A DNA stretch of 64,000 nucleotides. It comes from Apostichopus japonicus. Its lineage: Eukaryota; Echinodermata; Holothuroidea; Aspidochirotida; Stichopodidae. The position numbers and the translations under genes are program-made. The stretch is from NCBI RefSeq assembly GCF_037975245.1, contig NC_092576.1, forward strand, positions 26,425,611 to 26,489,610, in the 5' to 3' direction. Shown piece by piece: positions 19,651 to 34,790 of this stretch (positions are counted from its first letter, which is position 1; each line of letters begins with the position of its first letter). The notes under the pieces were generated by a model. That model was not told the origin of the DNA and did not search any database. It worked only from the letters and a program-made list of their open reading frames with translations.

Positions 19651-20252
19651 AGAAATTAAGACAGTCTAAAGTGTTTAGCATCTCAGATCGAGTAGCCCTT
19701 GTCCATTGTTTGGTGAGGTGGCAAGCTCCATTGTTACTACCGATCTTACTACTTTATGAGCTGGTGAGGTAGACTTTATTTCTAATTTTCATGTTTTTTC
19801 ATGTTTTATCATAGCAGAAGCTTCTGCTACACCCTCCAGAAAGCGAAGGAACCGAAGGAACCTTCACACTTTTGCAGATAAGAAGAAAACAACCATCAAG
19901 AAGCGCCAAGAACTATATACAATATCATAAGATGCAAAGTGTGACTTCTCGATTGTTTGTGATGGTCAAATGATTAGGACCAAATAATGTTGTTTACCTC
20001 GGTCTGGAGTTAAATATACCTTGTTGGCGAAGAAATTCTTGTTCGCATTATTAGTAAAATAATCTGCACTCAAATTCCTCTTCAGGCAAGCTGATTATTT
20101 TAATCAAAATGTGAAAAAGACCATCTGTACGGCTCTTATTTTTTTTCTGTTCGATTATTCCATGTCATCTTGGTAAGGAGGTATATCTAAGTACCACGCT
20201 TATAGATCACAATGTGCCCAAAACAAAGTTACCAGATTCATTGCCCCTGTCG
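19651..20252. other. spacer, no gene seen
   Basis: Low-complexity AT-rich DNA. A short coding-like scrap around 19823-19925 (SGSTPSRKRRNRRN-type basic residues) has no support beyond composition. Confidence 0.35.
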
Positions 20253-20545
20253 AAAAAAGGCCCTTGCCGCGACCAGTTCCAGCCACTTCGCAGCAACTAG
20301 TTGCAGCGCAGACGCTGCGACTTCACTTTTCACATGTAAATGAGGTTTGTGGCGACTTCGCCGGAAAGGTGCCTGCAGCGACTTCGCAGGAAAGGGGCTT
20401 GCAGCGACTTCACTTTTCACATGCAAATGAGGCTTGTGGCGACTTAGCAGGAAAGGAGTTTGCTGCGACTTAGCAAGGAAAGGGGCTTACAGGGACTTCC
20501 CTGGAGAGGTGCTTGCAATGATTTTGCAGGAGAGTTTAATTGCTG
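20253..20545 (+). repeat. left subterminal repeat cluster (ACTTCGC motifs)
   Basis: About seven degenerate copies of a ~24-60-bp unit built on gcgacttcgc(a/c)gg, followed by aaaggggcttgcag, with the spacer 'cttcacttttcacatg.aaatgagg' appearing twice. The motif orientation is opposite to that in the cluster at 30884-31180. Confidence 0.75.
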
Positions 20546-21001
20546 TAATGCTAAGAGACTATTGGAGAACCTGATTATATATGGCATATATAGGATGTTT
20601 CACGCATATTTTTTACAGGGGCAATTGTTAGACATCTATTCATCATCGGAAGAACTTTGTAGGTGTAAACTACTTTATTTTAATTTCTACTCTGTTAATT
20701 GTAAAATTTCTTATACTAATACTGTCTATTCTACCTCTGTCCATGAGTGTATTTCTTCAAAGGCAAGAAATTGCCTAACGCATGAGTATGCACAAGTGCA
20801 CTTTAGTAAATACAGTGTGATTACAAACTAAAAGACTTAACCACTTTGCATATCTAAGCAAATTAATTACAACCATGTGACTATTTTATTCAAAATTGTA
20901 CACATTGAGAAGAGATTGCAATGCATAAAGTTGGAAAAGAGATGTACCAAATTTTGCAGGAGGATTGGACGTAGTTCAGAGATACTTTTTACATAACTGT
21001 A

Positions 21002-21216
21002 CAGTATCCCTCCAAATCAGCTATAAATATTCCCCTGCAAAGATATCCACTTATAACTGCCTCAGCAGTAGCAATTTCCACCAGAATTGTCTTTAATCTG
21101 CAGAAAAAAAGGTTTATATTTTAATTTTCCCTTAAAAGTGGATATCAACTTAAGAGGCAGTTTTCACAGGAAATATTTGCATGATGTATATTAATAGCTG
21201 ATTTGGAGGGACACTG
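21002..21216. mobile_element. 215-bp mariner-type MITE, TA duplication
   Basis: The ends cagtatccctccaaatcagc (21002 onward) and gctgatttggagggacactg (to 21216) form a 23-bp terminal inverted repeat with one mismatch. TA is present immediately outside both ends (21000-21001, 21217-21218). CAGT...ACTG ends with a TA duplication point to a non-autonomous Tc1/mariner-group element. It has no ORF. It lies just beyond the 3' end of the BEN-like gene, inside the larger candidate transposon. Confidence 0.88.
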
Positions 21217-21243
21217 TACAGAAACGAATATTAAATGAAACTC

Positions 21244-24200
21244 TCAACTACATAAAATATTTGGGAATTCTGCCAACTTACATGTAATCGCTTCCATCTG
21301 CAGGGGAAACAGCTTTGCCAAGGACGAGTTGTTACCCTCCGACATATCGCGTGGCTCGAAAAACCCATCTAACATTTTCTTTATTAGAAACGCCTTGGAT
21401 TTACCCCTGCACTTTGAGAGAAGGGTACTGTGCCAAGCAGCTGGTATTGGCATTACTGTTAACAATTCTTTCCAAATGTGGTGACACATCCTCTCCATCA
21501 GTCAAAATTACCTAAATTAAAAAAAAGTTACAACAATCTGATTGGAAGCAATCTGCACCTCTGCAAGATAAACATCATATTCATGGCATTTTTGGATTAC
21601 CGCTTCCACTTGAACACTCCTCAACCCAAGTTGTGATAAGAAATATAGCAAGAGAATTCTGAGCAGAATCTGTTGATATGTTCTCACTTATATACGACGT
21701 TTTCAGCTTGATCAAAACTCAAGTGTATGCAAGATAAATACACCAAACTTGTGTTGGCTGATAACTGGCTATTAAAGGAAGATCGGCAAGGCTTGGATGG
21801 CTATTAAAGGAAGATGTTGACAGAAAATTGGCTCTCTTTGGGGATACTAGGAAACCACTGATGAACTCTGTTTGTAAGATATTTTCATTTACATTTCAAG
21901 AAAACCGAAGTGGTCAGTCTGCAAACTTCAATATAACTTCAAACAAAACGAATTGGATCTTGTATCGTGAATCATACTATCTTTATTTATTCACTCTATA
22001 GGGTCCACCACAACAGAAACACAGCCAATTTCTTCACATCTTAGAGGAACACAGTTTTATGTATGGCATAGCATATTTATCCCATTTCACATCTGTCATG
22101 TTAAAACAGACTCAATTGTTTTGTATCTGTGATTGAACCATGGTTCCAATTAAAAAGTTCACTGGCTGGCTTGTTTGGAACTAGAAAATTGATAGTGAAT
22201 TAAATCAACTGGGAAAACCAACACTGAGGTATTGTTATTAACATTAACATTTCAATTCGGACTAATGTCACTTTCAAATAATTTGAACTTTTTCTGTAAT
22301 TCAATATATGGCATGAACATGAAACAGATTGGTTCAATAACTACTGTGCAGGATCAGACAGGGATCATTTCACATTCACGGAAATGAGAGCCACTTTAAA
22401 ACAAACATATGAAGGTGTAGTAATTAGAGGCTGAGGTAGGACTTACATATTTACACTGTGGAATCTGAGTGCCCTTTGGTGGTACATAGTGGCTACTTCC
22501 AGCATCATCAGTGGGAGACTGCTTGCACTTATCTGTCAAAAAATGAATTACATCTTCTAAATGCTGTCGTTCTTTAGATCATGTGTTTTGCTTTGTTGAA
22601 TCATGCCTTTTAGCCACATGCATGGGACATAATCATAAGGTGACGTAAATGATGTTAAAGTTTAAAACAAATGTTATAACACAGGTCTTGGAGTATTGAC
22701 AAGGTGTATTAAATTTAATTGTACCTGGATGTAACTGTTTATTTCCACTACACTATAAAGTCCAACTTCAAGATAAGGGGAAAAAATGAAAGAGACTTGG
22801 AAACAAAGCATTATTTCCTTATTCTTTCCTCTTCTTTTAATTAAAGAGATATTTTTATCCAACAATTATGCACTTGTGATACAAACCCACCCACAACTAG
22901 AAAAATGTGGAAGAATCATGTACCATGTGTCCTCTTCAGCCCTGTCAATGCATGCTGGTGGCTGTGAGGAATCAAACAATGGTGGAGTGTTATTTCGTAG
23001 ACATGCATGTGCACTGCTAGTAGGATCACTTGCATGGAGAAGTTCTGTTAAACTTGGGGATTCACTAGCAATGGTGTGTGCATCCTGTGAGGGTTAACTT
23101 AGTGGATACTGTTGAGAGGAAGGAAGATTCAAAGAAGTACCCGTTAATGGGTGTGGAATATTATTAACATTCAAAGGGGTTGGTTGGACAGGCATGAATG
23201 AAGAGCTGGAGGAGAAAGGTGGTATGACAGGGGGAGATGAATAATTCCTGTGATGGTACTGGTGTGGGTTACGGAAAGAATTTAACATGTGGGGAGGATA
23301 AGATGGCTGTCCACTAAAATTAAATGAATGGTCTGTGGGTTTAGGGGCTATGACATGTGTTACATGTGAGCTACTTGGAAGATTGGGAAAGATTGGACTG
23401 GCTGTTGGTGGCTGTTGTGCTGCCTCTATCTTTTTCTTTTCAAGATCCTTTTTTTTCCGTTTAGCATCTGTGAAATCCACAAAGTATCAGATTAATCAGA
23501 GCTTTATTTTACTAATCAGAGGGGTGTCAGTATAACACATCACAGCTAAGTATTTGTTCTTTTGAAAGTGTTTACTTCTAATTCTAAGGGGCTCAATAGC
23601 AAATGCTACTCAATGTTTGTAGCATTTGAGGACATACATGTACACACAAAACTTATCACATGGGGGTTCAGTGTTTGCAGTAAGGTATAGAATAATTGCT
23701 GCATGTATAGCTCCATTGATATCACTGGGCACAAATGAAAACCTGATAAAATGAGACTGCTTTTCCTGGTACTTTCAATAATGCAAAGAAAATGTTATTG
23801 AAGGAAAAATCCCCCCCCCCCCAAAAAAAAAATTCAAGAGAAAATAAACTTAACTGATGTGACCTACGGGTGAAACATTTTGACACTAGTGTGCACTAGT
23901 GAGAAGTGTTTTCCAAATTTAATTTGAACGGGGGAAATGTTTTCAATAATGCAAAGAAAATGTTATTGAAGGGAAAATCCCCCCCCCCCCCCAAAAAAAT
24001 TCAAGAGAAAATAAACTAGGCGAAACGAGAGCAATGTAATCCTCATCCCTGAATTCAAACTGCACTGGGGAACACTGTTTACTTTAAATGAAAGTCAAGT
24101 ACGGTACTACCAACACACCTAATGGTTGCAGCTTCGAAATGATTTCCAGACCGTGCTTGAAATGAATCCTGAAATATAAAGGTTTGTGTTGCAGGAAGTA

Positions 24201-25673
24201 AAGTACCTTTTGATTTTGTGTTTTCTTGTGATGCATTTTTTGCGGCCTGGTTCGTGCTTTGGCAAGCAGCATCTGGTGATAAATCAAACCAATTAAGGTG
24301 TTATAGATTATGTGATATAGTACAAGTAAGTACCTGTTAAGAGAAATGTTAGGCGGTGCCACTTTCTGACGTTACTGGGGGTGAACCTTTCATTTTTTAG
24401 CAAATTCCAGAATCATTGTTGATTCATTGCAAAAGATAGACTTTTACTAGTATACTTGGGGGATTGGTAAAGCTAGCGAAAAAATACCACTGTTTAGGAA
24501 CTGCAGTGGCTCAGGGCTAGTAGGCCTACTTGAACAGGAATATGCAGCTCTGATTTACAATTGCCAACTTCTTTGCAGTTACACTCCCAGATCATATACG
24601 TGACACTGAGGTTGTGATCACGAAGTACATATATACACAGCGATAAAAAACTAGATTAGAAAAATTGGGGAAACTGGAAGTTGTAGAGGCACAATAATCA
24701 TCATATGAAAAGTGATGGGAATTTTAAATTTTTCCCATAGGCCTCCCATAGGAGAGTGACTGCATAATCAATCAACCAAGTTTCAGTAGTTAAGAAGCTG
24801 ATCATCTGCACCTGGATGTATGACAATGTGTTGAAACTGTACAAAGTGACTCAAATTTGCCTTTTTTTCAAAAGACTTAATCAATTGTTACTTGGCAATA
24901 CAATCATTTCAATGCAAAACATTATTTTGTTAGGGGAGCGTCATAGCACACATTTGGTACACCATTACTTGAGTAAACTGCTGCACAATTATGTGCATCC
25001 AGGTGCCTCAATGGGTCAATCATGGCCAGCAAATGGTCACTAAAAGTGTAAATCTGATTTGGGTCAAAGATGTAGTAATATTGGTGTGTCTAACTCACTA
25101 CGCAGGGGTGCCTCTAGCATTGTAGTTCTACTTCAAGATGAGTCGGCTAAGTTATACCCATTTACTAAGGTATGGGCAAATAACATTTCAAGTTGGCTTG
25201 CCACAGGTTTTACCTTTTTAAGTTAATTTAAGGATTCTCTGCACTGAAATACTGTATAACTATAAGAGTCCCTGATAATAATAGTGACCATGCCGCCTCG
25301 GCTTAGTCTGTTTTAACTGCTAAAATATGCTTAACTATACTGCCTAGGCTTAGCAAGGCTACAGTAGATTTATATCCTTTAGCTTACTAAACTTACGACC
25401 ATAAACAAACGATGCATGATATATTTCTGAGGCCGTAAAAAACGCCCGGAATTTTCCTCCAAAAGCCATGGAGATGTTTCCCTCGTCTTCCATTGGGAGA
25501 ACTTCACCGACTGGCACCACACCAAAATGGCTGTCTATTTTCCAGAAGAGGCAAACATGCTTGCAATGACTTCCAAGCGAAGGTGGCAGACCAAGATAAG
25601 ATCCCTTGCAACCGTATCCACTTGCTCTTTTGAAAATTGCATTTTTAACACGTTTAGAACTATGCAATGGCAA
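21244..25673 (-). pseudogene. spliced BEN-domain-like protein gene (accessory gene of the 20-31 kb element)
   Basis: Leftward exons with canonical sites and compatible phases can be read. Exon 1 is 25673-25397 (contains LFWKIDSHFGVVPVGEVLP; donor gtaagt; phase 1). Exon 2 is 24272-24207 (STNQAAKNASQENTKSK; phase 1). Exon 3 runs from 23467 with a lysine-rich start (AKRKKKDLEKKKIEAAQQ) into a Pro/Ser-rich linker. Later pieces are DKCKQSPTDDAGSSHYVPPK (ending at 22447, donor gtaagt) and a terminal exon from about 21511. The last exon has LLSKCRGKSKAFLIKKMLDG then FFEPRDMSEGNN, and LFPLQMEAITCKLAEFP, which resembles a BEN domain (helical DNA/protein-interaction fold). An in-frame TAA at 23094-23096 interrupts an otherwise continuous frame that goes on to DAHTIASESPSLTE, and the last exon needs a frame change. 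Call: degenerate gene; the BEN assignment is from memory of the fold's pattern. Confidence 0.5.
23777..24018 (+). repeat. tandem duplication with C-tracts
   Basis: A block beginning caataatgcaaagaaaatgt, then attgaagg..aaatc, (C)12-14, an A-run and ttcaagagaaaataaact is present twice, about 167 bp apart (from 23777 and from 23944). It lies in an intron-like part of the leftward BEN-like gene. The C-tract lengths differ between copies. Confidence 0.85.
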
Positions 25674-26140
25674 GAACGTTTGCTTTGTTACTAGTAATAC
25701 TACACTGGTAATAATAATAACACTGAGTATTACAGTAACCTACGTACTCAGTTTACGTTAGGGTACTTGGGTAACGTGCCGTTAAAAAAGTCACAAAAAT
25801 TTCGGTTTCTCTTGAAATATATAAATGACACAATGGTCCAAAGTATGGACAGCTTTTATAAAGAATTTTGATAAGTAAGAAAACTAAGTCGAGAGATTGA
25901 ATGAGCGAGAGAAATAGAGCGGTTGTATTTGAAAGATGTCAGATTGGCGCGGTGATCGCAACGATATCGAGCGATTCGCTGAATTGTTTCGCAATCGAAA
26001 AATTTCGCAGTTTCTGATTGGCCAATCATAATAATAGACATCTTACTCAATTTGTACATTTTTACGTTGTTGATTATGTTAATTAATCGTTTGTAGACAG
26101 TAAAGCCAACTTCATTCAGTATCCCTTTGTCAAGCTTGTT
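25674..26140. promoter_or_regulatory. candidate bidirectional promoter between the BEN-like and transposase genes
   Basis: The gap between the two divergent first exons holds a locally CpG-richer stretch (about 25900-26010: gcgcggtgatcgcaacgatatcgagcg). It also has the palindromic double CCAAT element gattggccaatca near 26016-26028. Paired CCAAT boxes in a head-to-head arrangement are typical of shared promoters. No transcription start can be located from sequence alone. Confidence 0.4.
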
Positions 26141-26534
26141 TCTTAAATTCATGTTTGTTGATTTCTTAGACGGATTTCATTCTTTTGTTCATGCAAAAAG
26201 GAGCTCAGGAACAAATGCCACCGACTTTCTGATCTGTGATGGGAGCGTACCAGATGTTGTAAGTATATCTCCTTTTATCAGATCCTTTCTAGCAACTTGT
26301 AACTGCGTACGTAAACCTGGTTGAAACCAGTCAACCTATATGATTGCATGGAAAACAAAACACAGTAACCTGTTGTGTAGAATTGTTTACTTCAACTATC
26401 ACACAACAGTCGTCTCGTTGCACGTGACGTAAGAAATAATTTTACACTCACTAGTAGTAGTACAATCACTTCCCGGTCTTAAAATATATATTTTACTATC
26501 ATTCCCTGCAGGCTACCGCATTCGATTCATATTC

Positions 26535-29500
26535 ATGATGGAGTAAGTGGTTCTTAATTTATTTCTTGGGATGCCAAGCCAAGTTAAAACGATCGTATAG
26601 AACTACTTGAGTACTAGTTTTAGTAAATTTTAAGTTACTGTTTTAGTAACGCTCAATCTAGGCTAGTATTAGTAGAAGTACTAGTTAGTAAGGGCTTCGG
26701 GGTTAGGCAAATACCCTAGTTATGCACAGTCAGTGTAGGAGAGTCTCGAAACAGACATAGCCTGTAGCGGGGTCTAGTCTATCTTATGCTACAATTAAGG
26801 CGAGGCCTAGGACTAGTAGTGATACTTCCATGGTATTTTCCTATCCCATATCTAGTAATAATTTAAGATTAATGTAGTATCCATACTGCATAGGCCTATT
26901 ATTACTTATATGTGATATGACTACTAGTACTAGGCCTAGTTATACCTTTCTATCTGCCATTATGCATGTATCAAAATTGTTAGACTATCACTCAGTATTA
27001 AAGGTGCCTAATGTCAAATGAATTTGTGACCATTAAGGGGTCTGTTAAGTGCATGATTTGTACAATATGTGCAGCAAAGGGATCTTCATGATTAGTAAAT
27101 GGTCAATCAAAATTTAAATCGGATGTGAGAAAAAGACTTTTATGTCAAATTTACTTCAAAGATTGCTTAAAGAGCTTCATTGTCCAGCTTAATTTATGAA
27201 CATTGAAGCACATATCCTGTGAGTCGTAGGGTGCTTCGTAGGGTACAGTGATACAGTGGCATATCCACACAATAAATGCATCAGGGCAAACTATACTAGG
27301 GCTTAAGTTATAGACCTGCTTATGCCTACACCTACAGTAAACATGGTATCCTTTTTTTCTGCAGATCTACTCTCAAAAAGCAACGACTGGAAATGAACTT
27401 GCAGCAAACTAATTCCAGCTATCAAACTGTTGGTGAGTACAATTCCTATAAATAGCCAAGTCAGCAATTGAAATTAGCCTGTTGGTGGGTCAATGGCCAA
27501 AGCCAGTCTGGATGATAATCAGGCCAGTCAACAGCCCCCTCCCCCCCCCCCACCGCATCAAACATGACGTGCTAGATCTAACTGCATCGATTCAAAGGGA
27601 TTGACAAAGATTAACTTCATTTCGTATTTTATTTACAGAGCCCAGTGTTACTCACGTGAATTCACTAGGCCATGTTAGATCTTCTCGGTACAACCAACCA
27701 CGTAGACGAGAAATAGCGACATCCAATGTTCAGTCAGAAGCCACTACTCCAGCATTATCTGAAGTTAACATGGCTGACCATACTGAAGGTGGCTCATCAT
27801 CATTTATAGAGAGCGTGCAGCCAGATTATCAGTGCACTGATGAAAGTGCCACAGCAATTATCCACCCATCGATACCTTTAGCAACTGAAGTAAGTGAACT
27901 AATGAATACTACAAACTGGCAGGCAACTCTTGACCCAGATGTTCACATATCTGATAAGTGGGATGATTTGTTGGGTGAGCCTGATACCTGTGATGCTTCA
28001 CCTTTGGATGATGATGAAGAATCAGAGTCAGAGTCCAGGAGTGGTTCCTCATACATATATAGAGGACAGTAGAAATAAGTCTGCTCCTGATACTGACATT
28101 TGCAACGACGCATTCCATCACTAATGTCCAGCTCTCCGATATACTAGCACTAATAAGTCTCCATTGTATGGAAACACACCCTGCCCTTGGAAGTCTCTTT
28201 AAGTTTAAGAACTATTTTGAAAAGGCAGATTCACCAGTGCAAAAGTACTACTACTGTGGGTCCTGTTTTAGCTCTGTTGAAGATGGCCAGACAAATTGTT
28301 ATATATATGTAGGCCGACAATTGACTTTGAGAAGAACAAATTCCTAAATGTACCATTAGAGCCTCAAATTCAAAACTTGTTTCAGCGTCCTGGATTTGTA
28401 GATGATATCCAACATAGATTTAAGAGAAGTAAAAAGAAAGGTAATAATGTTGAAGATATTTATGATGGTGCTATCTACACCTCTTTTTCTCAAACTGGTG
28501 AACCTTTATCTAGTTCATATCCTTATAACATATCATTCTGTTTAAATACTGATGGGATACCAGTTTTCAAAAGTTCAAAGGTTTCCATATGGCCAGTGTA
28601 TCTCATGATAAATGAGCTTGAATATAAGCTTCGGAGACAGAAGGAAAATATGTTATTTTGTGGTCTATGGTGTGGTGAATCAAAGCCCCTCTTTTCTGTG
28701 TTCAGTAGGCCTTTTCTTCACAGTTTAAAGAATTTAGAAGAACAGGGTGTGACAGTACAAGTAAATGAAAAGAAAGAAGTATGTAAAGGTTTTGTTTTAT
28801 CCTCTACAGCTGATTTACCAGCAAAAAGTGCTCTTATGAATATGGTGCAATATAATGGAAAACATGGGTGTCCAAATTGTTTGCAGCCAGGTCAAAACTT
28901 CAGAACACAGTCTGGTGGCAATATTCATGTTTCCCCATATGACAAGAACAACCCAGCTGGGACCTTAAGATCTAGCGAGCAAAGTTTTAATGATGCTAAG
29001 GAGGCACTTGCTCAAAAGGTTCCTGTAAATGGTGTTAAGGGACCATCTTTCCTCATGGGGTTAAGGAGGTACAAATTTATTTTGGGCACAAGTATTGACT
29101 ACATGCATTGTGTTTTGTTAGGCATAACAAAATGTTTACTGTCTCTTTGGTTTTCATCACGCAATTCTGGAAAACATTTTTCTCTGCTACCTCACTTAGA
29201 TCTTATTGATTGGTGCTTGTTAAAAATTAAGCCACCATATTTAGTAACACGGGTGCCCCGGGCTATTGGCAGTAATTTTAAATTTTGGAAAGCATCACAG
29301 TTAAGATCTTGGCTTCTGTTTTACTCCCTGCCTCTGCTATTCGAGCTGATGGATTCTATTCAGTTTTGTCATTATGCAGCTTTTGTAGAAAGCATACACA
29401 TCCTGACAAAGGATTCCATAGCTCCTGGAGATATTGAACGGAGCAATACCCTCCTGAAGTACTTCGTCTTCATGATGCCATCCATTTATAGAGATGTGTG

Positions 29501-30222
29501 TGCGTAACTTAGGACCATTATGGGCACACTCTTGTTTCCCTTTTGAAAATATCAATGGAAAGTTACTCCAACTTTTTCATGGTACACAAAATGTTGATTT
29601 GCAAATTGTTAATTAATTCTGTTAGTATCCTTCAGCAACTCCCAAACCTGACAGATATTAGAACTTTTCCTGATGGATGCAGAAGTTTCATGCTTAAATT
29701 ACTGAGAAAAAACAAAGGTAAAGTTGGTTCATGCATTGGAGTTGTTGCAAATGTGGTAGGACCTGCTCACCACCATTTGGTCCCTGTGTCACTCTTGAAC
29801 CAGATTCAAAAAGTTACGAAAATGCATCCTAATTTTCTATTTTCTTTTCAACGTATTCTAATACGGAATCAAATATACCATTCCAAATCGTATAAAAGAG
29901 TTTCTTCCAGAAATTCATACTCTGTTAAGTTCATTACAAATTCATGTATTGAATATGGTTTTATTGATTATTTTATCTATGTTTTAGACCACCCTTGTGA
30001 GTGTCATAATGCTTTATGCAACTGTACAAAAGAAGGATTAGCGATCGTGGAGAAAATGCAAAGTCTGCCAGATTTTTTTTGCAAGCGAAAATAGATGTAC
30101 CCTCATTCCTTCCTTTAGAGTTTTCAAATTGCCATGCATTGAAATCAACTGGCATAACTGAAGTTATAAATATTGAACAAATTATTTCACTTTGCTGTTG
30201 TGTAGAAACAGAGAATGTATAA
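26535..30222 (+). pseudogene. tnp2/CACTA-like transposase gene, spliced and broken
   Basis: The start is ATG 26535 on a short exon ending at 26542 (donor gtaagt). It splices in frame to 27365-27432 (tctgcag acceptor, gtgagt donor), then to 27639 onward (tttacag acceptor), giving MMESTLKKQRLEMNLQQTNS across the junction. The N-terminus is acidic and Ser-rich (EESESESRSGSS). The transposase body includes LLLILTFATTHSITNVQLSD, NVPLEPQIQNLFQRPGF, LNTDGIPVFKSSKVSIWPVY, INELEYKLR, GLWCGESKPLF, KHGCPNCLQPG, GTSIDYMHCVLLG, RVPRAIGS and GPLWAHSCFPFENINGKL. This order matches animal tnp2-type CACTA transposases as I remember them. Breaks: stop and shift at 28070-28080, a 2-bp AT expansion near 28300, a shift or deletion near 29495-29510, a shift near 29610 and one near 30070. 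It is therefore not functional as written. Confidence 0.75.
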
Positions 30223-30883
30223 TTTTTCATTGACTTTCCAAATTTGAAAGAAAGTGATTAAAATTTTAAACTGATTGACTGAAACCTATTAACTGATTTA
30301 AAGAAACTACAGTAAGTTTGGCAGAAGTCGAATTATGAATAAGAATCTTCCTGAGTTTTGTATTCAGAGTTTTGAGATTATTTTCAAGATTCTTCAGTTT
30401 TTAATAATTTGCATTGCTTAGTGTTGTTTGTGGGGTTCTTGTACGAATGAAAAGAATTTAAAACATCAGTAATTGTTTAATTGCTGATTTATAAGCTCCA
30501 TATAGCTGTGTCGTTACTGTAAATAATTTTAATTAAAGTACAGGAGTCATAGTCACTAATATGCCTTTCCTCATGTTGTAACCATTAGAGTTTGTTCAGT
30601 GGTACCACATATTTTCTATTTGTACATGAAAAGTTAAAACATTTAAGAGATAATGGCTCTTTAATTGAAACCAATAAAAGAAACCCTGAAAATTATATGA
30701 TATCTGTTTGGTTTTGTGTAAGATATTATGTAAGTTTCTCCTTGTTGTGAGATAAGTTAACTGCAGAACCACTGCACTATGAGTTGCACTATAAAAGCTT
30801 TTGCTGTGTTGTAAATAAAGCTAGATGCAGAAGGGGAACCTGCCCATGAATCATGATCATGCAGTAATAACTTCAGTTCCCAC

Positions 30884-31180
30884 AACTATAGTTGCAGGAA
30901 AGGTACCTTATGGTGAAGTGATTATTACTTGCCGGGTAGTACAGTAGCTGCAACTGGTTGCAACAAGAAGGCCTTTCCTGCGAAGTAACTTTCCTTGCCG
31001 CGAAGTAGCTGCGACTGGTTGCAACAAGATGGGCCTCCTGCGCAGTCATATTCCCTTGCTGCGATGTTGCTGCGACCACTCACAGGAGCAAAACCCTGCG
31101 GCGAAGTAATATTACTGCTGTCGCGAAGTCACGGCAATTTGACGGTAAAAGTGAAGTACTGCGAAGTAACCCTTTTGGTA
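30884..31180 (-). repeat. right subterminal repeat cluster (GCGAAGT motifs)
   Basis: About six degenerate units carrying gcgaagta/gcgaagtc, with 'ctgcgactggttgcaacaag' present in two close versions (about 30949 and 31010). This is the reverse-oriented counterpart of the cluster at 20253-20545. Confidence 0.75.
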
Positions 31181-31204
31181 GGGGTGTGGGTAAAGATTTT
31201 TTTT

Positions 31205-31434
31205 TCACCATGCTGACATCAACACTATGCCTGAACAGTTACGTTTGAATCATGTTTTCCCATGGTAGCTCTCCAGTTTATATGAGGGGAAGTTTTATAG
31301 TGTTCATAGCCATAACACAAGAGGTAGTGCAATTAAAAACTGGAACAGGCTACCTGAAAAAAAAAAATCCATCCTGCTGAAATACAATATTAAAAAAGAT
31401 TTCAAAGCCTACCTTTTAAATGATATGGATGTCT
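31205..31434 (+). pseudogene. C-terminal scrap of another LINE reverse-transcriptase ORF
   Basis: Two overlapping frames give MPEQLRLNHVF, then SSPVYMRGSF, and after a shift HSHNTRGSAIKNWNRLPEK with DFKAYLLNDMDV and a stop. This order (LRLNHVF ... Y ... NTR ... WN.LP ... FK..L) is typical of the extreme C-terminus of CR1/L2/jockey-type LINE proteins, different from families A and B. The downstream 300 bases up to 'ctgaataaaataaaacc' may be its 3' UTR. It begins just outside the right subterminal cluster. Confidence 0.5.
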
Positions 31435-33434: not shown

Positions 33435-33892
33435 GCCCCCGGTAGCCTACCTTAGAACAGTAGGCCTATTCTACAACAAGTTGCAGTCCGAACAGTTACA
33501 TAGTATTAAACTGGCACTGATAGGGGTACTCGGTTTAGTCGTTGTACAACTCGTGTTTATATGTAAAGGGTTGTACTACAGCCTTAATTCGTAACTAACT
33601 GTGTAGGCATGTGCTGCAGATAGTATTCACTATTTCAGTAGCCTCTAACAAGGCAAATTAAATATTTCATTTTAAATATTACCAGGTTGCAATTTATAAC
33701 AGTTGTTTCGTTATAGTACTCTTTAAATGGTCCTTTTTTCATTCAGCATAGCCTACCTAGATTGGCTTACCGGTATTAAATACTTTTTCAGATTAGGTAT
33801 AGGCCTACTTTTGATTGGCCCCCAGTTTAATGATTGAATTGTTTGATATTGCTGATTCTTAAAGTTGTTGTCTGAATTTTTCCACCCAAACT

Positions 33893-34790
33893 GTTCTACA
33901 ATTATCGGTTCAGCCAATACTGCTTCCTTAATTATCAGTTTAGCCAATACGATTTCCTCAATTATCATTTCAGCCAATACTGTTTTCTCAATTATCTTTT
34001 CAGCCAATACGGTTTTCTCAAATATCGTTCAGCCAATACAGTTTCCCCAATTATCATTGTTTCAGCCAATACGGTTTCCTTAAGTTATCATTTCAGTCAA
34101 AAGTCAAAACAGTTTCCTCAATTGTTGTTTCAGCTAGTACAGTTTCCTTAATTATTGTGTCAGCCAATACCGTTTACTAAAACTTATTACTTATTGTTTC
34201 AGACAATAAGTAGTGCTTCTTTTGTTGTTTATACATTCCTCAAATATAGTTTCAACCTACTGTTTCATCAATTATCATTTCAGCCAATACGGTGTCCCCC
34301 AATTATCGTTTCAGCCAATACGGTTTCCTCGATTATTGTTTCAGCTAGTACAGTTTCCTCAATTATTTTGTCAGCCAATACCGTTTACTAAAACTTACTA
34401 CTTATTGTTTCAGGCAATAAGTACTGCTTCTTTTGTTGTTTATACATTCCTCAATTAGGCCTATAGTTTCAACCAACTGTTTCATCAGTTATCGTTTCAG
34501 TCAATACAGTGTCCCCAATTATCGTTTCAGCCAATACGGTTTCCTCAATTATTATTTCAGCCAATACAGTTTTCTCAAGTTAGCATTTCAGTAAAAAGTC
34601 CAAACAGATTCCTCAATTATTGTTTCAGCCAGTACAGTTTCCTCAGTTATTGTGTCAGCCAATACTGTTTACTAAACCTTATTACTTATTGTTTCAGGTA
34701 ATAAGTAAGTGCTTCTTTTGTTGTTTATACATTTGTCTTGTGCACTCTATTGTTTCAGCCAATAAGCCTACTACTTCTTTAATTATTATT
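33893..34790 (+). repeat. ~30-bp minisatellite with higher-order repeats
   Basis: The monomer is approximately ttcagccaatacggtttcct followed by caattatcrt, repeated many times with substitutions. Three times (about 34178, 34388, 34668) the array is interrupted by the same longer cassette (ttactaaaacttattactta...gtgcttcttttgttgtttat), so a higher-order unit of roughly 210-280 bp has also been amplified. It lies directly upstream of the Helentron-like ORF at 34902. Helentron-derived elements commonly contain internal minisatellites, so it may belong to that element. Confidence 0.9.

Follow-up and report, generated by a model that had tools for sequence, protein, structure and literature searches.

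A decayed CACTA-related transposon copy in Apostichopus japonicus and a BEN-domain gene as candidate end-binding partner of its transposase

The window, that is, the whole 64,000-nucleotide stretch of Apostichopus japonicus DNA analysed here (C16:26425611-26489610), contains an old, decayed copy of a cut-and-paste transposon related to CACTA, of the TRC kind found in animals. Comparison with sister elements in the same genome points to a two-gene organization, in which a rightward tnp2 transposase gene stands head to head with a leftward BEN gene inside terminal repeat arrays. Our main reading, to which we give a probability of roughly 0.65, is that the BEN protein of this TRC-kind transposon serves as a second, end-binding transposition protein. 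The two-gene arrangement had been proposed in a preliminary description of the window; it now draws its support mainly from the sister elements, together with copies of the element itself, whereas the BEN domain of the window copy goes unrecognized by Pfam.

Limits of the element and its deletion derivatives

The 671.6-Mb genome assembly was searched with both ends of the element, a search in which copy numbers are lower bounds. The alignment borders of the copies are sharp at window position 20244 and at either 31167 or 31184, which places the ends at 20244 and 31184 instead of the 20253 and 31180 given earlier (Table 1). In the aligned copies the termini read CCCCT...AGGGG, those of one copy (L015) being mutated, and a matching 2 bp directly flanks 14 of 18 copies, the window copy included, against a chance expectation of 1/16. 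The flanking 2 bp are unmatched in the other four (L002, L007, L015 and L019), and among those a 3-bp duplication fits L007 alone. The host site of the window element is itself another, older repeat, of which empty copies could be examined (L050-L054). When the flanks are rejoined minus one TG, they align gap-free to five out of five of these empty copies, with one mismatch at the junction, which establishes 20244-31184 as one insertion. To judge by its reading frame, the split host repeat (20000-20243 plus 31185-31400) may represent the 3' portion of a LINE reverse transcriptase, and its last 93 bp have at least 17 other copies listed, with 89-92% identity.

Table 1. Features of the element in window coordinates
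Feature	Position	Strand	Basis or content
Left target-site duplication TG	20242..20243	.	copy alignment and empty-site comparison
Whole transposon	20244..31184	.	10,941 bp; sharp alignment borders in other copies, empty-site match
Left end, imperfect terminal inverted repeat CCCCTGTCGAAAAAAGG	20244..20260	+	aligned ends
Left subterminal array	20276..20540	.	on +: ACTTCGC x3, GCGACTT x6
BEN-like exon, apparently frame-broken	21282..21511	-	sister-like position and orientation; weak profile score
Segment missing from all 17 other fetched two-ended copies	22211..25145	.	mid-part of leftward gene
Putative exon of leftward gene	22447..22532	-	AG/GT borders by sequence reading; inside segment missing from 17 derivatives
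Putative proline-rich exon of leftward gene	23094..23486	-	open frame; no Pfam match
Putative first exon of leftward gene	25359..25739	-	open frame; weakly similar to the N-terminal exons of sisters
Upstream open frame, probably of transposase gene	27605..28072	+	in 27601-28431 stretch kept in derivatives
tnp2 transposase, broken	28066..30073	+	PF02992 match; blocks aligned to L028 frame
Segment missing from all 17 other fetched two-ended copies	28432..30211	.	transposase core
Right subterminal array, mirrored	30944..31167	.	on +: GCGAAGT x5
Right end, imperfect terminal inverted repeat ...CCCTTTTGGTAGGGG	31169..31184	-	aligned ends
Right target-site duplication TG	31185..31186	.	copy alignment and empty-site comparison

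Further, 17 other places with both ends in the correct order were fetched, to the exclusion of one-ended places and of a short one around C16:26.34 Mb. The preliminary description had suggested a search for other copies holding both genes between the ends; two-ended copies with 2-bp duplications do exist, but none of the 17 retains the transposase core, which is thus kept in the window copy alone among the 18 two-ended copies examined. Compared with one of their number, L008, these copies are 92.7-99.7% identical in their longest aligned pieces (99.7% for L009 and 99.3% for L004). Against the window, identity falls to about 70-87% in most of their internal pieces, while the last 225 bp of the right end mostly reach 92-94%. 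This combination of high mutual identity and lower identity to the window marks them as a burst of deletion derivatives from a sister of the window copy. Four of them (L004, L008, L009 and L010) share 98.6-99.7% identity over long stretches, and the near-identity of some derivatives implies that these are young. Among the matches listed in the assembly, no transposase is more than 47% identical to the window core over its full length.

The two genes and their pairing

The rightward product matches PF02992 (Transposase_21/tnp2) at 2.2e-12 and 47.1 bits, against a cut-off of 28.6. Alignment to an 820-codon open frame in a relative (L028:1663-4122) resolves it into blocks at 28066-28266, 28341-29507, 29500-29622 and 29609-30073, which occupy three frames, the last three adjoining or overlapping each other. 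Introns were considered as the source of the breaks in the core and are ruled out by this frame distribution and by the abutting or overlapping of the last three blocks. Hence, of the spliced rightward transposase described earlier, the tnp2 identity and the direction stand, while the interruptions of the core are frame changes. Upstream of it, the stretch 27601-28431 is kept in the derivatives, mostly at 84-87% DNA identity, and the open frame within it has no Pfam match.

The leftward gene of the window looks broken. The earlier description of a leftward spliced gene with a BEN-like end holds for the leftward candidate exons, but PF10523 (BEN) is not matched by Pfam search in either the single exons or a read-through exon, and the exon corresponding to the domain appears frame-broken. 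Its residual similarity to the sister BENs is weak: 6.1 bits against a profile of R4, R6 and R7 (equalled by 0 of 2000 shuffles), 5.8 bits against a five-sequence BEN profile (equalled by 1 of 2000), and a probability of 6-8% in a profile-profile comparison of the window-family BEN with the sister BENs. For the N-terminal exons, 55 of 2000 shuffles score as well for the window family, 281 for R1 and 130 for R8. The exon is accordingly termed BEN-like on the basis of position, orientation and this residual similarity. By sequence reading, the position expected for the final exon of the leftward gene (20990-21220) is occupied by an inverted repeat that looks like a small palindromic element.

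Sister elements were collected through the window transposase, which gave 109 genome matches. After 18 short ones (79-86% identity over the first 52 residues; derivatives and the like) were dropped, the remaining 91 were merged by hand to give 71 places, as against 70 in a previous merge of this list; nine places were fetched as R1-R9, plus short end pieces. As a side observation, 38 of the 71 places lie on contigs C16 and C17 (28 on C17).

These places resolve into several subfamilies. R1-R3 are 96-98% alike, with ends CCCTGG..CTAGGG and duplications TT, TA and AT. R4 and R5, joined by a third copy, are 99.86% alike, with 13-bp perfect repeats CCCCTCTACAAAT and duplications CA, TT and TA; the transposase of this subfamily lies within an open frame of 820 codons, and R4 and R5 each hold both genes inside one 11.3-kb unit. 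R8 and R9 are 98.7-99.2% alike, R8 having ends CCCAGCAAAAAA..TTTTTTGCTGGG and duplication AT, while R6 has ends CCCTTACAGAAAAG..CTTTTCTGTAAGGG and duplication AA. The sister termini read CCCTGG, CCCCTCTAC, CCCAGCAAA, CCCTTACAG and CCCAGG, and a 2-bp duplication is present in all nine sister copies with both ends read. A single pair of ends surrounds both genes in the window element, R1, R4, R6 and R8, and in sister subfamilies the head-to-head BEN gene stands next to long transposase frames that are open.

It is in the leftward genes of the sisters that the BEN domain becomes evident. Once two exons bordered by GT-AG are joined, PF10523 is matched by R1 (2.8e-8, 34.3 bits), R6 (7.9e-9, 36.0 bits) and R8 (2.4e-10, 40.9 bits) above its cut-off of 23.2, whereas R4 stays below it (7.7e-4, 20.0 bits). 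The single R7 exon has no Pfam match when searched alone, and reaches 7e-20 with a profile built from the four other sister BENs. Profile searches, which the preliminary description had called for, therefore bear out the tnp2 domain in the window transposase and the BEN domain in R1, R6 and R8, but not PF10523 in the window gene itself. When the five-BEN profile is compared with the Protein Data Bank, the first five distinct sequences are NACC1 (6.2e-12 and 9.6e-12), BEND6 (8.3e-9), 4ix7 (7e-7) and Bsg25A (0.012), followed by two unrelated chains at 0.5 and 0.6. Of these, 4ix7, listed as RE55538p, we take to be the Insv structure; the R1 BEN, presumably, resembles BEND5. Single-sequence searches of solved structures gave chance matches only, and an NCBIfam search with the R1 exons and the R4 transposase gave no result.

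The association of the two genes was then measured across the assembly. With Pfam matches alone (66 BEN matches and 70 tnp2 places), there are 10 pairs within 12 kb, nine of them head to head; when the BEN places were shifted by 0.1-3 Mb, 2000 trials averaged 0.49 pairs and never exceeded 5. With all BEN queries (127 BEN and 71 tnp2 places), a BEN lies within 12 kb at 20 of 71 places, head to head at 16, where the controls give means of 0.82 (any orientation) and 0.19 (head to head) and maxima of 6 and 3 in 2000. Since the later queries derive from BENs that had come to notice through a neighbouring transposase, the Pfam-only count is the cleaner test. R7 has a head-to-head BEN of its own (C3:12228410), a seventeenth case masked in the count by a nearer BEN of another element type (L055-type, below); the remaining three of the 20 pairs are oriented otherwise, two of them lying on C17 and the third on C16.

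Pairs cluster in the transposase clade of the window: a BEN is within 12 kb at 18 of 33 places with at least 35% identity to the window transposase, at 2 of 19 with 30-34% and at 0 of 19 below 30%. Among the 18 close places with a BEN, the nearest BEN is not head to head at three, R7 being one. At the other 15 of the 33 close places, the window included, no BEN was found within that distance; at one of these (C17:22.11 Mb) an R1-like BEN lies about 21 kb off, head to head. Further, the coarse grouping of the BENs agrees with that of the transposases, R4, R6 and R7 falling together, apart from R1 and R8. The identities for BEN and transposase, respectively, are 61% and 56% for R4-R7, 49% and 41% for R4-R6, and 22% and 33% for R1-R4. 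The finer order differs between the genes (R6-R7 42% and 46%; R1-R8 21% and 37%), with R1 and R8 being closer than R1 and R4 in the transposase but not in BEN.

BEN frames without a transposase, which had been named beforehand as evidence against the pairing, do occur, in two forms. The L055-type (example C1:16909900-16914899) is an abundant 5.6-kb repeat with CCCAGG..CCTGGG ends, duplication CC and an AACAGG/CCTGTT array at each end, of which just the right-hand one is largely one-way. It carries decayed R1-like BEN frames or exons without a tnp2 match and recurs at least at about 28 further places with 93-99% identity, among the best 30 of 1619 candidates scored. In view of these ends, arrays, duplication and decayed BEN, we interpret it as a deletion derivative of this kind of element, and as a second non-autonomous burst of the CCC..GGG elements. 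An array at the right of R7 was at one point considered part of R7, and was rejected as such on finding that it belongs to an adjacent L055-type element. The second form is a separate case: L056 (C2:18943500-18948499) has a 119-codon BEN frame scoring 30 bits against PF10523, and frames of this kind and of equal length occupy 14 places among the matches listed, without tnp2 within 12 kb.

Terminal arrays and the possible role of the BEN protein

Array motifs were counted in the terminal 700 bp of each side as compared with the middle of the element. The mirrored GCGAAGT clusters originally noted at the two outer ends are confirmed: inside the element, the motif is on the minus strand only at the left end (three times) and on the plus strand only at the right end (five times), and it is absent, both strands counted, from the 7.9-kb middle. 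In the whole window it occurs 12 times against 3.2 expected, a number reached by 0 of 100 shuffles; four of the 12 fall outside the element. In the derivative L008, ACTTCGC numbers 17 in the left and 16 in the right 700 bp, with strict mirroring. The window family, R1, R4, R6, R8 and the L055-type each have a separate end array, with mirroring that is strict in the window family and L008 and near-strict in R1; in R4, R6 and R8 the motifs are partly palindromic or present in both orientations. In the R1 subfamily, CCAACTGG or CCAGTTGG is found 6+6 times in the two 700-bp ends and 0 times in the 9.7 kb between them. The site of Drosophila Insv is given in part of PMC6911014 as TCCAATTGGA, with the core CCAATTGG, from which the R1 array motif CCAACTGG differs by one base, a resemblance spotted post hoc. 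When known BEN sites were counted in the arrays of the other subfamilies, none was enriched except CGCG, which is densest in R4 (16 and 8 per 700 bp in the two ends) and elevated also in L008 and R8.

These features could be accommodated in a scheme modelled on maize TnpA, wherein the BEN protein would bind the many copies of a subfamily-specific motif near each end. It might thereby draw both ends of the element into contact, and also recruit or stabilize the tnp2 transposase, which would cut at the CCC..GGG ends and insert with a 2-bp stagger. The divergent gene order could allow the BEN and transposase genes to share a promoter region, and derivatives that lack both genes yet keep the ends and arrays would be moved in trans.

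The most serious alternative is that the BEN gene is part of the element but that its product acts on chromatin or transcription (by anti-silencing, insulation or self-repression) and not as an end-binding factor. Repression and insulation are the roles known for BEN-solo proteins (PMC6911014, in part), maize TnpA itself also acts on the promoter (PMC1636069, in part), and the density of CGCG at the R4 ends, with its rise in L008 and R8, means that the arrays could be promoter or silencing targets. However, mirrored arrays are kept in derivatives lacking the core of both genes, and are even more numerous in L008, which points to a role in mobility; we consider a purely regulatory BEN protein unlikely, if still a serious contender.

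CACTA elements are known to capture host genes, and BEN could accordingly be a captured host gene carried as a passenger without function for the element, as might also be suggested by the 15 of 33 close tnp2 places without a BEN within 12 kb. Against this, the orientation and a similar spacing are kept across several diverged subfamilies, and the coarse grouping of both genes is equal, which argues for one old, retained pairing and makes a mere passenger quite improbable. That two unrelated repeats became adjacent by chance, in a repeat-rich genome that does hold BEN repeats without tnp2, is scarcely credible in the face of shifted-position controls far below the observed pair counts, which rule out chance neighbourhood, of the one pair of ends enclosing both genes in five subfamilies, and of the single R4/R5 unit.

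Extending the end-binding reading, an entire animal CACTA-related clade might move with a dedicated BEN end-binder whose specificity changed along with the arrays, and BEND5 and Insv might share an origin with the transposon BENs, the host genes having been taken from transposons or the reverse. This wider proposal is speculative, and we regard it as rather doubtful.

Relation to known elements

Animal TRC elements (SmTRC1 and relatives, DeMarco et al. 2006) are described in part of PMC1636069 as having CCC ends, a 2-bp duplication, Transposase_21 and truncated copies. The window element resembles them in its Transposase_21 domain, CCC terminal core, 2-bp target duplication and truncated copies. 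On account of the ends, duplication and domain, it fits the animal TRC branch and not plant CACTA, an assignment made by these characters rather than by a transposase tree. It differs from TRC in that neither a BEN partner nor a divergent second gene is described for TRC in the available portion of PMC1636069, according to which the other SmTRC1 proteins arise by alternative splicing and appeared not detectably conserved.

With plant CACTA elements it shares the tnp2 domain and the subterminal repeats at both ends, whereas those elements have CACTA ends and a 3-bp duplication in place of CCCCT..AGGGG and 2 bp. Maize Spm requires a tnp2-type protein as well as TnpA, which binds the arrays (PMC2613891 and PMC1636069, in part). 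Across plant CACTA elements (maize Spm, soybean Tgmt), repeats and binder vary by family and deletion derivatives exist (PMC2613891, in part). The plant TnpA is, however, spliced from the transcription unit of the transposase, with no BEN mentioned in the same portion of PMC2613891, while here the partner is a separate, divergent BEN-family gene.

The CMCT clade, including Plavaka (Kojima 2025), likewise belongs to the broad transposase group of the window element, and the parts of PMC12730594 consulted report 2-bp duplications and an extra gene in some lineages (TET/JBP in fungi). Its ends are 5'-CA..TG-3' in most cases, and TGT..ACA or CATCA..TGATG in Plavaka (PMC12730594, in part). The window element differs in its CCC..GGG ends, which match neither Plavaka form, and in having BEN instead of TET/JBP as the extra gene; the Plavaka domain scores 19 bits in its transposase, under the cut-off of 26.3. 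PF06869 (DUF1258), said to represent the Mirage group (PMC3985635, in part), gives 33.7 bits with the window transposase and 32.6 with that of R4 against a cut-off of 33.1, so that the window is just over and R4 under it, yet PF02992 scores higher in the window. The BEN-solo factors (BEND5, BEND6, Insv, Elba1/2) have the BEN domain in common with the sister genes, but are host regulators and not transposon-encoded.

In the literature covered on BEN domains with CACTA, EnSpm or DNA transposons, a partial coverage with Repbase outside its scope, no link was found, including in the accessible parts of PMC5704228, PMC11075544 and PMC12367297, and one may be noted elsewhere. Animal CACTA-related elements have a known transposase, with no conserved counterpart of the plant TnpA in the portions of the literature examined, and the BEN gene is a concrete candidate for such a TnpA-like role. 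Additionally, the subfamilies make available several diverged pairs of BEN protein and DNA site from which the DNA choice of BEN domains might be decoded, and they raise the question of whether transposons gave rise to the developmental BEN regulators or, conversely, acquired BEN from them. Elsewhere in the window, the region 33750-34150 is tandem-like, with short repeated peptides readable in both directions.
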